A stretch of DNA of 34,149 nucleotides from an uncultured Desulfobulbaceae bacterium (lineage in GTDB: Bacteria; Desulfobacterota; Desulfobulbia; Desulfobulbales; Desulfocapsaceae). This document shows, in pieces, positions 4,512 through 34,149 of the stretch. The first letter of the stretch is position 1, and every line of letters starts with the position of its first letter. A program made the translations under genes and the position numbers. The notes beneath the pieces were generated by a model, which saw only the letters and a list, made by a program, of their open reading frames with translations, ran no database searches and was not told where the DNA came from. The stretch covers positions 1-34,149 of the forward strand of contig CAMZKN010000173.1 of NCBI GenBank assembly GCA_947311315.1, read 5' to 3'.

Positions 4512-5705
4512 CTAAAGCTTTAAACCAATCCAACGGGGAGAGTCGCCAAATGTTTCCGGAGCTGTACACGACTCATTGAGTGCATCAAGCAGGTGCCGGG
4601 TTTTAATTTCTCTTCCCCCAAGCCCTAAAATATAGTTATGCACAAGAGGCTTATCTTTACTGTTGTATAGTGCTGATTTAATATCCGCATATAAGGCTCC
4701 CTGGTTGCCGTAACTCAATGCTTTTTCGAACACAATTGCACATTTTTTACCATCCAGGGCAGCGATGATTGCCTGATTCGGGAAAGGTCTGTACATCTGA
4801 ACCCCCATAACACCAATCTTCACTCCATTATCCCGCATAATATCTATCACGTCGCGAAGCTGGTAAGACAGTGAGCCTATACAGACAGCAACAAAGTCGG
4901 CATCTTCACACTTATATTGTTCTACAAAAGGGTTTCCTCCACGGCCAAAATCCTTTGCGAATGCCGTATCAATTTCTTCATAAACATCAAGAGAGGCGCG
5001 AAGATCTTCCTGTAAGTTATGTCGAATCTCAATGTAGCCCGGGGCCATTTTACCATCAAGGCCTGGCCTGACATCGGGGAGAGTGACGGTGTTGAAGTTT
5101 GCGGGATCGTCAGGGTTCAAGAAATGAGTCGGAGCAAATTTGGGCAGAAAAGTATCAACTTTACTCTGCTCAGGTTGATCAAACGGCATGTAGGTATGTG
5201 ATAGAAGATATCCATCATAACAGACCATTACCGGGATACTTACGCTTTGTGCAAGACGGAACGCCTTTATCACTGAATCGATGATCTGCTGGTGATCGTT
5301 ACAGTAAATCTGTATCCAGCCAACATCTCTTTGGGCGATGGTGTCTTGCTGGTCGTTCCAAACTGTCCAGGGGGCTCCTATGCCACGGTTGGCTACACAC
5401 ATAACAATAGGCAGCCTTGCACCAACTGCCCAATGCAGTTGCTCATTCATGTAAAGAAGGCCATTTGCGCTTGTTGCTGTAAATGCTCTGGTGCCGGCAG
5501 TTGAGGCTGCAATGCAGACGCCCATGGCACTGTGCTCACTTTCAACAGGTATGTATTGTGCGTCGAGTTCTCCGCCTTCAACAAATTCGGATAATTTTTC
5601 TGTAAGGGGAGTCTGGGGAGTAATGGGGTATGCCGCGATAACCTGGGCTCGTGAGAGCTTTACACCTGTTGCAGCTGCTACATTTCCGGATTCAATTATA
5701 TGCAT
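4512..5705 (-). CDS. 2-oxoacid:ferredoxin oxidoreductase, alpha subunit
   Basis: The 397-residue alpha subunit of the same complex. It has the N-terminal pyrimidine-binding fold (GNVAAATGVKLSRAQVIAAYPITPQTPLTEKLSEF split over the first 40 residues), the ESEHSAMGVCIAAS catalytic-Glu region, the TATSANGLLYMNE segment, and a transketolase-C-like domain from about residue 250 (DADFVAVCIGSLS, IGVMGVQMYRPFP). Length matches PorA/VorA proteins. It starts five bases after the delta subunit stop, consistent with translational coupling. POR-versus-VOR specificity is undecided; context suggests branched-chain 2-oxoacids. Confidence 0.93.
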   Translation of the reverse strand: MHIIESGNVAAATGVKLSRAQVIAAYPITPQTPLTEKLSEFVEGGELDAQYIPVESEHSAMGVCIAASTAGTRAFTATSANGLLYMNEQLHWAVGARLPIVMCVANRGIGAPWTVWNDQQDTIAQRDVGWIQIYCNDHQQIIDSVIKAFRLAQSVSIPVMVCYDGYLLSHTYMPFDQPEQSKVDTFLPKFAPTHFLNPDDPANFNTVTLPDVRPGLDGKMAPGYIEIRHNLQEDLRASLDVYEEIDTAFAKDFGRGGNPFVEQYKCEDADFVAVCIGSLSYQLRDVIDIMRDNGVKIGVMGVQMYRPFPNQAIIAALDGKKCAIVFEKALSYGNQGALYADIKSALYNSKDKPLVHNYILGLGGREIKTRHLLDALNESCTAPETFGDSPRWIGLKL

Positions 5706-5710
5706 GATTG

Positions 5711-6016
5711 TTATTTATCCTCCTCGATAGGAGTTGCTTCGTTAACCATGGTAATAGCGCCCGCAGGGCACTCTTCAGCACAGATACCGCAACCTTTACA
5801 ATATTCAAAATTAATGACTGGTGGAATAGTTTTTGATACAACAGAATCCGGACAATACAGCCAGCAGTTAAAGCAGGCTTCTTTGTTCATCTTTACGGGG
5901 ATACAGGCTTTAAGATCTATTACAGGACGTAAAACGCGCCAGGATCCGGTATTGCCACCATCGCCGGGGCCGGGCTTAGAACGTGATATCATTTTACAAA
6001 ATTCTTTGGGTGCCAT
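5711..6016 (-). CDS. 2-oxoacid:ferredoxin oxidoreductase, delta (ferredoxin-like) subunit
   Basis: A 101-residue ferredoxin-like subunit that passes electrons from the TPP/Fe-S core to external ferredoxin. The second cluster motif is canonical, CKGCGICAEECP. The first is unusual: CFNCWLYCP keeps three of the four expected Cys in C-x2-C-x2-C-x3-CP, and the first position is Lys; another Cys sits ten residues upstream (LKACIPV). The ATG directly abuts the TAG stop of the gamma gene (TAGATG), a strong sign of coupling. N-terminal residues are polar and no export signal is seen, so it is cytoplasmic. Confidence 0.9.
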   Translation of the reverse strand: MAPKEFCKMISRSKPGPGDGGNTGSWRVLRPVIDLKACIPVKMNKEACFNCWLYCPDSVVSKTIPPVINFEYCKGCGICAEECPAGAITMVNEATPIEEDK

Positions 6017-26270: not shown

Positions 26271-26531
26271 ATGTATCTTGAAAACAATATACCGAATTGG
26301 CAATTTGATGATGAGTTTGATGGCGGTGAGGAGAGTTGTGGCAGGGTCATTGTTAACCTCTATCTCTACATCAGAAACCAACCATCTGATTACCGAATAC
26401 TTGTCATTTCAAGAGATCCAGGTGCACCTGTCGAAATACCTGCCTGGTGCCGGATGACAAAAAACGAGCTCACATCCATGCAACACCCCTATTATCTAAT
26501 CACTCTTAAACCAGTTTTAAAGAAGAGGTAA
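26271..26531 (+). CDS. TusA-like (SirA/YedF-type) small protein
   Basis: An 86-residue protein homologous to the N-terminal part of the TusA-OsmC fusion encoded two genes downstream. Both share an acidic start, a FDGG...CG motif (Cys23 in EESCGRV) in place of the TusA CPxP sulfur-carrier site, and IPAWCRMT (Cys60). TusA proteins carry persulfide sulfur and pass it to partners; the CP dipeptide is changed to CG here, so this is a divergent subfamily. No strong ribosome binding site precedes the ATG. It is the first gene of a tight operon, with four bases to the DsrE-like gene. Confidence 0.7.
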   Translation: MYLENNIPNWQFDDEFDGGEESCGRVIVNLYLYIRNQPSDYRILVISRDPGAPVEIPAWCRMTKNELTSMQHPYYLITLKPVLKKR

Positions 26532-26535
26532 AAAC

Positions 26536-26901
26536 ATGTCGAATACATTCTGCGTTACAATCACTCACTGCAAAACTGATCCAGACAAGGCAACTCTAGG
26601 ATTTGTGGTTGCTAATGCAGCCCAGGGTAGTGAGAAAGAAACCATGGTTTTTCTCAGCTCTGATGGGGTCTATTGCGCTGTGTCCGAAGAGATAGCCAAA
26701 GTGAATGAAGGTGCACCTTTTGCACCTCTAAAAGAATTGATTGATAAGTTCATTGAAGCAGGCGGCAAGATTTATGTTTGTACGCCCTGTATGAAAAAAC
26801 GCAGAATATCAGAGACTGACCTTATCGCCAGCGCAACTCCCGCCGGAGGTGCCGCTCTGGTTGAATGGCTATCTGCCGGTTCGCCGGTAGCCAGTTACTA
26901 A
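26536..26901 (+). CDS. DsrE-family protein
   Basis: A 121-residue cytoplasmic protein of the DsrE/DsrF-like fold. It begins with the beta strand FCVTITHCKTDPDKATLGFVV, has the KETMVFLSSDGVYCAV strand-loop and the conserved Cys region GGKIYVCTPCMKKRR (Cys82, Cys85), where Cys82 aligns with the sulfur-accepting position in DsrE-type proteins. Family members transfer sulfur as persulfide, often with TusA, or act in selenium metabolism as YedF does. AGAGG precedes the ATG. The TusA and OsmC neighbours support a sulfur or selenium relay. Confidence 0.85.
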   Translation: MSNTFCVTITHCKTDPDKATLGFVVANAAQGSEKETMVFLSSDGVYCAVSEEIAKVNEGAPFAPLKELIDKFIEAGGKIYVCTPCMKKRRISETDLIASATPAGGAALVEWLSAGSPVASY

Positions 26902-26928: not shown

Positions 26929-27666
26929 ATGGAATTCGACCAAAATGGGTTTACACCCGATAATATTTTTGATGGTGGTGATCTGGATTGTGGTTCAGGT
27001 CTGATCCTCCTTATCCGACAACACATGCAACAGACTCCGGTTGGCGGAACCTTGGAGATGCGCAGTCGTGAGCCATCCGTGGCCACCGACCTGCCGCCCT
27101 GGTGCAGGATGGCAGGCCATGAATATCTGGGGCAAGCGGAAGGGGATGGATTTAGCAGATATTTCATTATGAGGGGAGGCAGTGTCACGAACGAAAAGGA
27201 GGCCCTGGAAAAGGATAAAGAGGATGCACAAAATTATCAGTGGCGATTGCGTGCAAGGGCTAAAGGTCACCTGACATCAGCTATTTACTGCCGTAATTTT
27301 TCTTTTGATACAGGACAATCTGCAAGCTTTGAGAAAAAAGATCACAACCCCTGTGCCATAGAATATCTACTTGCCGCCCTTGCTGGTTCTCTCAGCACCG
27401 GTTTTGCCACTGAATGTGCCAAAGCAAACCTGGAGATCGATGACATTGAACTGTCTCTTAGCTGCACACTGCACAATATTCTGGCCCATATGGGCCTGGA
27501 GGATGGCGATCCATCTCTGCAAACGATAGATTTGAAATGTTTCGCCTCGACTTTTGCCGACGAAGACAAGATCAGGCAGGCCTGGCAAAGAACAGTTGAT
27601 CGCTCACCAATCTCTGCAACCCTGCAAAAAGCTGTAAGTCTCCACCTTAAACTTGTAATTGTATAA
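26929..27666 (+). CDS. TusA-like/OsmC-like fusion protein
   Basis: A 245-residue fusion. Residues 1-85 are TusA-like (FDGGDLDCGSG with Cys21, and LPPWCRMAGHEYL with Cys59), and residues 100-245 form an OsmC/Ohr fold (RLRARAKGH, NPCAIEYLLAALAGSLSTGFATECA). In canonical OsmC proteins the peroxidatic Cys follows the AxAA/AG motif; here that residue is Ser154, and another Cys (163) lies nine residues on. Peroxidase activity is therefore doubtful, and the domain may instead hold a thiol, persulfide or acyl-type ligand. AAGGAA lies eight bases before the ATG, and the MetE-like gene begins four bases after the stop. Confidence 0.82.
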   Translation: MEFDQNGFTPDNIFDGGDLDCGSGLILLIRQHMQQTPVGGTLEMRSREPSVATDLPPWCRMAGHEYLGQAEGDGFSRYFIMRGGSVTNEKEALEKDKEDAQNYQWRLRARAKGHLTSAIYCRNFSFDTGQSASFEKKDHNPCAIEYLLAALAGSLSTGFATECAKANLEIDDIELSLSCTLHNILAHMGLEDGDPSLQTIDLKCFASTFADEDKIRQAWQRTVDRSPISATLQKAVSLHLKLVIV

Positions 27667-27670
27667 AAAT

Positions 27671-28837
27671 ATGCGTGAAAATAGAAGCTTTATCACAACC
27701 CAAGTCGGTTCATGGCCCCGTTCAAAACAGATGCTCAAGGCCCTGCGCTATTATCAGATGAATAAGATTAACCGTCGGGATTTTAATGCAGTTGCCGACA
27801 ACGAGATTAAAAGGACGGTCGCTCTGCAAGAAAAAGCAGGCCTGGATATCCTTGTTGATGGCGAGCACAGACGGGAGAGTTTCTACGCCTTTATCACCGA
27901 TAAGGTGGCGGGCACACAACTTATGTCTCTTGCCGAGATGCTTGATTATGTTGAGGATAAAGCCGAATTCGAAGAGATGCTTCGTACTATGGACATGCCG
28001 GCATCTGCGATAAAAAACCCGACCTGTGTAGGCAAGATCACCAGGCGTGAGCCCCTTGCTCTTGCAGATTATCACTTCCTGCGCACCCTCACCAGCAAGC
28101 CGATCAAAATCACCCTGCCTGGTCCCTACCTCCTCACCCGCTCCATGTGGATTAGTGCCTTGACCCGTAAGGTCTATCGAAATCATAAAAAAATGGCCAA
28201 TGATATTGTGCGGATTCTGCGGGCAGAACTCATCGATCTCCGGGATGCTGGATGTGATTTTGTCCAGTTCGACGAACCGGTACTGACCGAGGTCGTGATG
28301 TCTGAGGACTGTGAGCGACGCACTTTTATGTGAGCCACCCTGGCCACCCGCCGTGATGCGGGTAAAGAACTTAAATTTGCAGCCGAGCTGATCAACCGAA
28401 TCACCAAGGGCGTTGATGGTATCCGTATTGGGGTTCATGTCTGCCGTGGCAACTGGAGCAAGGACGAAGACGTTTTGCTCACCGGTGACTATACCCCTTT
28501 ATTACCGGCCCTAAAACGTATGAAGATCAAACAATTCGTGCTCGAATATGCGACTCCAAGGGCTGGCGATATTGAGGTCGTAGGTAAAGCGCTCTCAGAC
28601 CACGAATTAGGCCTGGGCGTTGTTAATCCTCGTACAGACGCAGTCGAGTCGGTTGACACAATTATCGCGGGGGCCGAAAAAGCCCTGGAATTTTACCAAC
28701 CGGGCAAGCTCTTTCTTAATACTGACTGCGGTTTCGGCTGCTTTGCCAGTCGCTCGGTCAATGTGGAGCAGGTGGCTTTTAAAAAACTCTGCGCCATGGT
28801 GGAGGCAGCAAAAATCTTGCGCAGGCGACATGGTTAA
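27671..28837 (+). CDS. MetE-like methyltransferase domain protein, probable selenoprotein (UGA at codon 221)
   Basis: A 388-residue protein of the cobalamin-independent methionine synthase catalytic (Meth_synt_2) family, without the MetE N-terminal half. Predicted zinc ligands are His256 and Cys258 (GVHVCRGNW), Glu292 (VLEYATP) and Cys353 (NTDCGFG); the Glu-to-Cys spacing of 61 equals that of E. coli MetE. Codon 221 is an in-frame TGA (28331-28333) in CERRTFM-U-ATLATRRD. The frame remains open and conserved for 167 further codons. A hairpin at 28346-28363 has bacterial SECIS geometry, so TGA is read as selenocysteine rather than stop. From memory, relatives have Cys at this site. Start ATG 27671 lies four bases after the fusion gene; no ribosome binding site, so coupling is likely. 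Methyl acceptor unknown; a core-MetE-type methionine synthase or selenium/sulfur methyl transfer is possible. Confidence 0.8.
28331..28363 (+). promoter_or_regulatory. UGA codon with candidate bacterial SECIS hairpin
   Basis: After the TGA at 28331-28333, ACCCGC (28346-28351) pairs perfectly with GCGGGT (28358-28363) around the loop CGTGAT. Counting the T of TGA as 1, loop G is position 23 and U position 24, the SelB-contact positions in the E. coli fdhF SECIS. The UGA-to-loop distance of 18 bases is in the usual bacterial range. Confidence 0.75.
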
Positions 28838-31233: not shown

Positions 31234-34035
31234 ATGTCACTTTTCCAGAAAAAAATACTCGCAAAGGCACTTACCAATAAGAAACTCTCTATTCCGGAAA
31301 CACATCTTGAGATTCTGGAGAGTTGGAAAATAAGATTGAATCAGGCAACCTTCTTAAACAGACAGAGGTGGCGATTCACGCACCATTCACCCAGAATATC
31401 ATGGCCGGAGTGTTGGGCTATACGCCGTTTGGGACAGATGAGAGTTGGACTGTTTCACGGGAGTATGGGGCCGCCAGCGGGGCAGTTGATTTGGCTCTGG
31501 GCCATTTTAGTGATGATAAGGCAAGTGATAATGTGATTGCTCCTTTTGAACTGAAGGGTGCCAAAACCAGAGATCTTGATGCCATTATGCCCGGTCGTCA
31601 TAAAACTCCGGTTCAGCAGGCCTGGGATTATGCCCGTGATATTAAAGGTGCACAGTGGGTGTTGGTCTGCAACTATGTGGAGCTTCGCCTTTATGCTGTC
31701 AGTGAAACATCGCTGATTTATGAGCAGTTCAACTTAGCTGAATTAACCAACCCGCAACAATATGCCCGGTTTGTTCTGCTGCTTCATGCCGATAATTTCC
31801 TTACTGGAAAGACCGCAAAATTATTGAATCAGAGTCTGCTCGCTGATAAGGAAATAACGGTTCAGCTCTATGATGATTATAAAACACTGCGTGAGTTGCT
31901 TATCATTCATTTAATTGAGGGAAATCCTGATAAGGCAGCAACTCGCCTTATTGCCCCTGCACAAAAATTACTTGATCGTTTTCTTTTTGTTGCTTTTGCA
32001 GAAGATAAGGGGCTTATCCCTGAAACAAGTATCGGGGATGCATTTGAACATGCAGATCCCTATAATCCCAGGCCCATCTATGAAAACTTCAAAGGGCTTT
32101 TTCGTGCCATCGATTCAGGGAATAGTTCTCTTGGGATTCCTGCCTATAACGGAGGCCTTTTTGCAACTGACGATGAGTTGGATCAACTCAATATTTCCGA
32201 TGAAGTGTGCCATGCAGTAAATGAACTTGCCAGGTACGATTTTGATTCAGAGGTCTCTGTGACTGTGCTGGGGCATATCTTTGAACAATCAATTGCCGAT
32301 CTTGAACTGCTAACAGCCAAAATTGAAGAGGGTGACCTTCTGGTTCCGCCGCAAAAATCCTCTGCGGCGATGTCCAGGGATGGACGAATATCGCACAAGT
32401 CCGGGAAGGCGAGAGCGACAAGTGGTAAACGCAAACGACAGGGTGTCGTGTATACTCCTGATCATATCACTGCTTTTATTGTAGAGCATACACTCGGCAG
32501 TCATATCAGTGGTCTTTTTCAGGAATTGCTCAGCGGTTATGGCAAGTTTAAAAAGAATGGTTCAATTCAATGGAAGAAGGGAAAGAAGACAGAAGTAAGA
32601 TTCTGGAACGGTTGGAAAGATATCTTGCAAAAGATAAAAATAGTTGACCCGGCTTGTGGCTCAGGAGCTTTTCTGGTTGCCGCATTCGATTATCTCCATA
32701 GTGAATACAGGCGTGTAGATGGGAAAATAGCCAGGTTGACTGGTACGAGTTACTCGATGTTTGATCTGAATAAAGAGATCCTGATCAATAATCTCTACGG
32801 TATAGATATTAATCCGGAATCCATCGAAATTTCCAAACTGTCCCTCTGGTTAAAGACGGCAGAACGGGGAAAATCGCTCACCTCACTTGATGAGAATATT
32901 ATTGTAGGAAATAGTTTGGCTGTGGATACACCAGCACCGGGTGAGAGTTTTTGCTGGAAAAATGCATTTCCTGAGATCATGGAACAGGGCGGTTTTGATG
33001 TGGTGCTCGGAAATCCTCCGTATGTGCGGCAGGAACTGTTTAGTGACTTGAAACCGTGGCTTGCGAAAAATTACGAAGTGTATAACGGGGTAGGGGATCT
33101 TTACACTTACTTTTTTGAGCTTGGTTATAAAATGCTTAAAGATGGTGGTCGTATGGGCTATATTTCCTCTTCCACTTTTTTCAAAACCGGTTCGGGAGAG
33201 CAGTTACGCCGTTATCTTGCCGAAAAAGCAACACTGGAAAAAATTGTTGATTTTGGAGATCTGCAGGTATTTGAAGGGGTGACAACCTATCCTGCCATTC
33301 TGGTGATAGAGAAAGCTCAACCCCAGGCTGAGTCTTCCCTGGCGATTCTCGAGTTGCGTAAGAGTCTCCCTGATAATCTTAATCTATGTTTTGCCCAGGA
33401 GCATGGCATCATGCCGCAGTCACGGCTTGGTACACAAAGTTGGCAGTTGGAGGATGAGGTACTTGCCAGATTGCGGCAAAAACTGGTGCAGGGATACCCA
33501 ACGTTGAAGGAAGTGTATGGATCACCACTTTATGGAATTAAGACTGGCTTGAATGCTGCCTTTGTTATTGATAACAAAACCCGGGATATGCTCATTGAGG
33601 AAGACCCCCGGTCAATAGAGATACTCAAACCGTTTCTTGAAGGGAAGGATTTGAAGAAGTGGCATGCGGAATCAAGGGGTTTATGGCTAATTGCCATACC
33701 CAAATTATGGACACGCCGGATGATGGGTAAAAAAACCGAAGAGATGCTCAGCGAAGATGACGCTTGGGTTTGGTTGCAGCAACAATACAGTGCTGTGGCA
33801 AATTGGTTGGAACCTTTTGCAGATAAAGGACGTAAGCGGGGAGATAAAGGGGAGTTTTTGTGGGAACTTCGGGCTTGTGCCTATTATGAAGAATTTGAAA
33901 AACAAAAGATTTTCTATCCAGACATAACGGATTCACCAAAGTTTCATTTAGATATTTCAAAGTCATATTCTGGGAATACAGGCTATTTCTTACCTATACA
34001 TGATCTGTTTACATTGGCACTATTGAATTCATGTA
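31234..34035 (+). pseudogene. Class IIG (Eco57I-like) restriction-modification enzyme, frameshifted and interrupted
   Basis: A large restriction endonuclease-methyltransferase. Residues from the ATG at 31234 (MSLFQKKILAKAL ... HLEILESWK) belong to the N-terminus, then the frame breaks near 31327-31331 and continues one frame over, IESGNLLKQTEVAIHAPF onward. A PD-(D/E)xK-like block (VIAPFELKGAK) is followed by the N6-adenine methyltransferase: DPACGSGAF for SAM binding near 32645 and GNPPY near 33010, then a target-recognition region. One missing A in GGAAAAT would explain the break. After LFTLALLNS (about 34032) the sequence no longer looks like the family, suggesting an insertion. The right-hand reading frame stays open to the window end. 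Probably inactive unless the break is a sequencing error. Confidence 0.8.
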
Positions 34036-34101
34036 ACTTCTCCAAAAGTGTTGGTAAAATAAAGCGTGCGTTCGAACCCCTGCCCTTGTATGATGGGAAG
34101 C

Positions 34102-34149
34102 ATGAAAAGCACATTCGATCAACTCACCAAAAACATTCCCAAAGAAGAC
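34102..34149 (+). CDS. Start of an unidentified gene, possibly of an inserted element (partial)
   Basis: An ATG at 34102 (alternatives 34090, 34093) opens MKSTFDQLTKNIPKED to the window edge, in a different frame from the restriction gene. It begins just where that gene loses family resemblance, so it could be the first codons of a transposase in an insertion sequence whose left end lies around 34032-34040. Sixteen codons are too few to name it. Confidence 0.3.
   Translation, partial: MKSTFDQLTKNIPKED

Follow-up and report, generated by a model that had tools for sequence, protein, structure and literature searches.

A predicted selenocysteine-containing MetE-like protein encoded with TusA-, DsrE-, and OsmC-family proteins in an uncultured Desulfobulbaceae bacterium

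Results and discussion

The MetE-like gene and its operon

The DNA analyzed here (the window) is a stretch of 34,149 nucleotides from an uncultured Desulfobulbaceae bacterium. It contains an operon of four genes on the forward strand, the last of which encodes a MetE-like protein and includes an in-frame TGA, putatively a selenocysteine (Sec) codon, and a hairpin:

26271-26531, + strand: small TusA-like protein of 86 amino acids, first gene of the operon; PF01206 at 26.5 bits, just below the gathering score; conserved
26536-26901, + strand: DsrE-family protein (PF02635) of 121 amino acids with a CTPC motif; conserved upstream of the Sec gene
26929-27666, + strand: TusA-OsmC fusion of 245 amino acids; PF02566 above and PF01206 just below the gathering scores; conserved
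27671-28837, + strand: MetE-like (PF01717) predicted selenoprotein gene, 388 amino acids, Sec at codon 221
28331-28333, + strand: in-frame TGA, predicted to be read as Sec; codon 221, motif TFM-U-A-T-L; TGA in 27 relatives, Cys in 8 homologues
28346-28363, + strand: putative bacterial SECIS hairpin with a 6-bp stem (ACCCGC/GCGGGT) and a 6-nt loop (CGTGAT)

The frame of the MetE-like gene opens with an ATG at 27671, 4 bases past the stop of the upstream gene, and ends with a TAA at 28835-28837, giving 388 amino acids when the TGA is read through. The original prediction described a lone TGA at codon 221 with 167 codons behind it, and we confirmed both, with the TGA at 28331-28333 and the frame continuing to 28837. 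The gene order small TusA, DsrE, TusA-OsmC, MetE(U) was kept at the intact Sec loci that extended far enough, and it held also at the Sec loci of an Eisenbacteria and a Myxococcota metagenome-assembled genome (MAG). Among the loci of homologues with Cys in place of Sec, L024, L026, L081, and L082 had a similar order, and four of the eight (L025 and L078-L080) had an OsmC-like neighbor alone, without DsrE and TusA. The TusA, DsrE, and OsmC families are thiol and persulfide carriers. The TusA-OsmC fusion gave a weak match, below the cutoff, to NF041052 (OsmC-related (seleno)protein). No Sec codons were found in the neighboring DsrE and TusA/OsmC genes, and the two stops seen in relatives were TAA: one lies within the OsmC domain of a TusA-OsmC relative (L010:856-1566), and the other right before the TusA domain (L030).

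Fold and active site

PF01717, the MetE catalytic domain, was the single domain detected in the protein (127.6 bits against a gathering score of 21, E = 8e-37). None of the NCBIfam methionine synthase cutoffs was reached, the best match being PRK04326 with 184 bits against 406. The structure model (mean pLDDT 86.5, pTM 0.89) matched MesD (3rpd) with a Z of 37.4 (2.5 A over 325). It also matched the zinc- and homocysteine-bound MetE of Thermotoga maritima (1xdj), with a Z of 36.1 (2.7 A over 334). Residue roles were assigned by alignment to those given in PMC7857596. The zinc ligands that the original prediction had placed downstream of the TGA (His256, Cys258, Glu292, and Cys353) are indeed there, and both they and the homocysteine residues Ser14, Glu65, and Asp201 were invariant in a 25-sequence alignment; the substrate residues are encoded 5' of the TGA.

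In the model, Sec221 sits in a loop between strand 197-201, which carries Asp201, and helix 230-245. This loop is missing from the two other PF01717 proteins aligned, to which the MetE-like Sec protein is ~30% identical, and its residues 220-224, the sole stretch of the model below pLDDT 50, may be mobile. Loops that follow the strands of a TIM barrel face its catalytic side, and the model accordingly places Sec221 on the catalytic face of the zinc-thiolate barrel. MesD has an insertion of its own, a tyrosine of which (Tyr226) touches the substrate carboxylate (PMC7857596). Given this precedent and the position of the loop on the catalytic face, Sec221 is likely to be close to the substrate. 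The protein thus shares with MesA-MesD (PMC7857596) and core-MetE a single catalytic MetE domain, the His-Cys-Glu-Cys zinc ligands, and the Ser/Glu/Asp homocysteine residues, and with MesD an insertion bearing a residue that contacts, or here may contact, the substrate. In contrast to these families, which are not described as selenoproteins, it has its own TFM(U/C) loop with Sec or Cys, and its gene lies in a TusA-DsrE-TusA/OsmC operon.

According to one reading, the protein is a Sec form of core MetE/Mes that serves as the methionine synthase of the organism, its Sec loop binding the substrate as Tyr226 of MesD does; this competes with the function proposed below and not with the Sec reading itself. 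It draws on the retention of every zinc and homocysteine residue, on the fact that MesD, too, has a substrate-contacting insertion (PMC7857596), and on the source genome, in which no match to the MetH homocysteine domain PF02574 was found. However, that genome encodes another MetE-like protein (L089), the operon partners are carriers of the persulfide type, and matches at E <= 1e-20 occurred in only 17 of the 93 genomes of the bacterial family, and two of the 17 matched at just 32-33% identity and hence lie outside the MetE-like Sec family. Moreover, no characterized Mes enzyme is known to require Sec. We consider this reading unlikely. Because the genome has the second MetE-like protein, the Sec enzyme is probably something other than the housekeeping methionine synthase, and the carrier-family operon, taken together with that protein, suggests a specialized transferase.

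Codon 221 across relatives

Relatives were collected from GTDB species genomes and from 93 genomes belonging to the bacterial family of the source organism. Close relatives were 76-85% identical to the MetE-like Sec protein, and a single MAG each from Eisenbacteria and Myxococcota added a further Sec-form relative, at 63% and 61% identity, respectively. Cultured carriers include Desulfopila sp. IMCC35008 and Desulfobulbus alkaliphilus DSM 24258. Every relative whose sequence spans codon 221 had TGA there. The 27 that were aligned, representing 26 distinct sequences from Desulfobulbales and these two MAGs, all had the common context ...TFM-TGA-ATLATRRDAG.... All eight distant homologues (L024, L025, L026, and L073-L077; 42-52% identity) instead had Cys (TFMC) and no stop, their genes being one unbroken open reading frame (ORF) across both halves; they came from Poribacteria, Dehalococcoidia, and a Bacillaceae MAG and, within the phylum of the source bacterium, from three further families. 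A sequencing error at the TGA, which the original prediction had listed as a way to refute it, is ruled out, since the same TGA recurs in some 26 genomes. In a phylogenetic tree whose rooting has long branches, the Sec forms grouped in a single clade (support 93/99) that excluded the Cys forms. A single Cys/Sec exchange accounts for the data.

We compared substitution rates on the two sides of the TGA for eight pairs of sequences. The dN values were about equal 5' and 3' of the codon (e.g., 0.115 versus 0.126), and dS was near saturation. Purifying selection is equal on both sides of the TGA, and these values together exclude a pseudogene or a noncoding 3' half.

The SECIS hairpin and the selenocysteine machinery

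The perfect 6-bp hairpin with loop CGTGAT that had been predicted 3' of the TGA is present at 28346-28363 (stem ACCCGC at 28346-28351, loop at 28352-28357, and stem GCGGGT at 28358-28363). Published constraints for bacterial SECIS elements are a loop of 3-9 nt, a stem of 4-16 bp, a distance of 16-37 nt from the UGA, a minimum free energy (MFE) <= -7.5, and a G as the first or second nucleotide of the loop, usually with a G or U after it (PMC13188914). When checked against them, the hairpin lay within every limit (a 6-nt loop with G as its second nucleotide, a 6-bp stem, a distance of 18 nt from the UGA, and MFE -14.2 kcal/mol for the 45-nt fold, z -2.07). An equally good hairpin at an allowed distance followed just 5 of the 1,359 TGA triplets on both strands of the window. 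The claim that the loop G and U fall at nucleotides 23 and 24 from the T of the TGA holds for this gene, but U24 varies among relatives: the dinucleotide from nucleotide 23 was GU in 13 and GG in 14 of the 27, both of which satisfy the G[G|U] rule. No equivalent hairpin formed in the three Cys genes that were folded.

We also evaluated codon entropy at 106 columns where the amino acid was invariant and 4- or 6-fold degenerate. The zero-entropy columns were Arg227 (CGC) and Ala230 (GCG), both within the stem, and Thr226 (ACC) was joint third lowest, while Ala and Arg codons close by the stem varied freely; counting against this argument, the ATRRDAG residues encoded over the hairpin are themselves invariant among the Sec forms. 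The core stem was near-invariant among relatives and thus offered zero compensatory changes to count, and in some relatives (L016 and L020) the lowest-energy fold was without the hairpin. A bulged U17 is a feature of E. coli-type SECIS elements; it is absent from this hairpin, where nucleotide 17 is a paired C. An Rfam scan of the window gave zero matches.

If the TGA were a true stop, the gene would encode a 220-residue N-terminal protein, and the 3' half would be either a gene in its own right or a remnant undergoing decay; an internal ORF of 120 amino acids with a TTG start is open at 28475-28837. Such a stop would, however, part the zinc ligands from the substrate residues, and the unbroken ORF of the Cys homologues, the equally low dN on both sides in all eight pairs, the recurrence of the same TGA across phyla, and the special conservation of the hairpin codons make it highly improbable.

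All four of selA, selB, selC, and selD were found in the source genome, which carries SelA, SelB, a tRNA-Sec (anticodon TCA), and two SelD genes, each with an in-frame TGA of its own. Decoding of codon 221 as an amino acid other than Sec (Trp, Gly, or that of a suppressor) is scarcely credible: although the inserted residue cannot be named from sequence alone, the homologues have Cys rather than Trp or Gly, the Sec machinery is complete, TGA is the ordinary stop of 6 of the 25 genes in the window, and a SECIS hairpin lies 3' of the codon. SelB was present in all 26 of the searched genomes that carry the MetE-like Sec family; as a link to selenium use, this co-occurrence is uninformative within the phylum, because SelB occurs in 333 of the 395 genomes sampled from the phylum in any case.

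The Sec interpretation of the codon 221 TGA is thus supported, as all checks proposed with the original prediction that we ran favored it. The comparative evidence for Sec at this position is strong, and from it we infer that Sec is incorporated. The gene very probably encodes a selenoprotein, with UGA 221 decoded by SelB and tRNA-Sec under the control of the hairpin at 28346-28363, and its product would be a MetE-fold zinc-thiolate enzyme.

Proposed function and relation to known selenoproteins

For this selenoprotein, we suggest a role as a zinc-dependent methyl (alkyl) or sulfur transferase whose Sec/Cys lid would handle a thiol, persulfide, or methyl group. Zinc would activate a thiol(ate) resembling homocysteine, while Sec (Cys in relatives), located on the mobile lid, would either serve as the nucleophile or accept a methyl or sulfane-sulfur group. 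The enzyme would have as its partners the sulfur carriers encoded in the same operon (TusA, DsrE, and TusA-OsmC), and the operon would shuttle methyl groups or sulfur (or selenium) between the zinc-bound thiol and a carrier. We offer this mechanism tentatively, as plausible but somewhat short of probable. Held with the same reserve is the broader idea that the lid might relay methyl, sulfane sulfur, or selenium from the TusA-DsrE-OsmC chain in a new sulfur/selenium pathway of anaerobes and not in methionine synthesis.

The original prediction took a Sec form of MetE-like proteins to be undescribed, and our searches agree. No MetE or PF01717 selenoprotein is present among the 119 families of prokaryotic selenoproteins inventoried in May 2026 (PMC13188914, whole table), among the nine new families of the deep-Sep set, in which Desulfosediminicola genomes were included (PMC12013277), in NCBIfam, or in text searches of the open-access literature. 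On this comparison, the MetE-like Sec proteins appear to be a new selenoprotein family in a fold unusual for Sec. The prediction had also stated that the neighboring families have known Sec members, which is correct for DsrE and OsmC; TusA was not found among the known Sec families. DsrE-like and OsmC-like selenoproteins (PMC13188914, Table 1) belong to the families of the operon neighbors and share their sulfur/thiol chemistry, but the neighbors here use Cys, and Sec is predicted in the MetE-like enzyme instead. The arsenite methyltransferase selenoprotein NF008823 (PMC13188914, Table 1) is likewise a methyltransferase in which Sec replaces Cys; unlike it, the MetE-like Sec protein is predicted to be a zinc-dependent TIM barrel. 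The MetE-like Sec proteins would add a selenoprotein family beyond the thioredoxin-like redox folds, in which Sec would lie next to a methyl-transfer site of the zinc-thiolate type. The arsenite methyltransferase is SAM dependent and has a Rossmann fold. Standard annotation would truncate the MetE-like gene, and the enzyme and its sulfur-carrier operon may therefore be overlooked in sulfate reducers. The natural Sec and Cys forms of one enzyme make the benefit of selenium in methyl/sulfur transfer directly testable.

Other features of the operon and its surroundings

In both TusA modules (26271-26531 and 26929-27666), a conserved cysteine pair, CG and WC(R/K/N), replaces the usual CPxP. In the MAG GWB2_56_26 (L032, about 5001-5793, and L049), frameshifts or deletions disrupt both the MetE-like gene and the gene for the TusA-OsmC fusion, and the TGA and hairpin are retained despite this. 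Directly upstream of the operon, a genus mate (L083:1192-5555; the same in L002) has genes for an NMT1-type ABC transporter, whose permease is nearest to SaoP but below the cutoff, an MtaA-like methylcobamide:CoM methyltransferase, and an MtbC-like corrinoid protein. We rejected a link to corrinoid methyltransferases, as these upstream corrinoid genes are confined to the L083/L002 genome. Downstream in the window, an Eco57I/MmeI-type restriction-modification methylase occupies 31323-34149 and runs off the window end.
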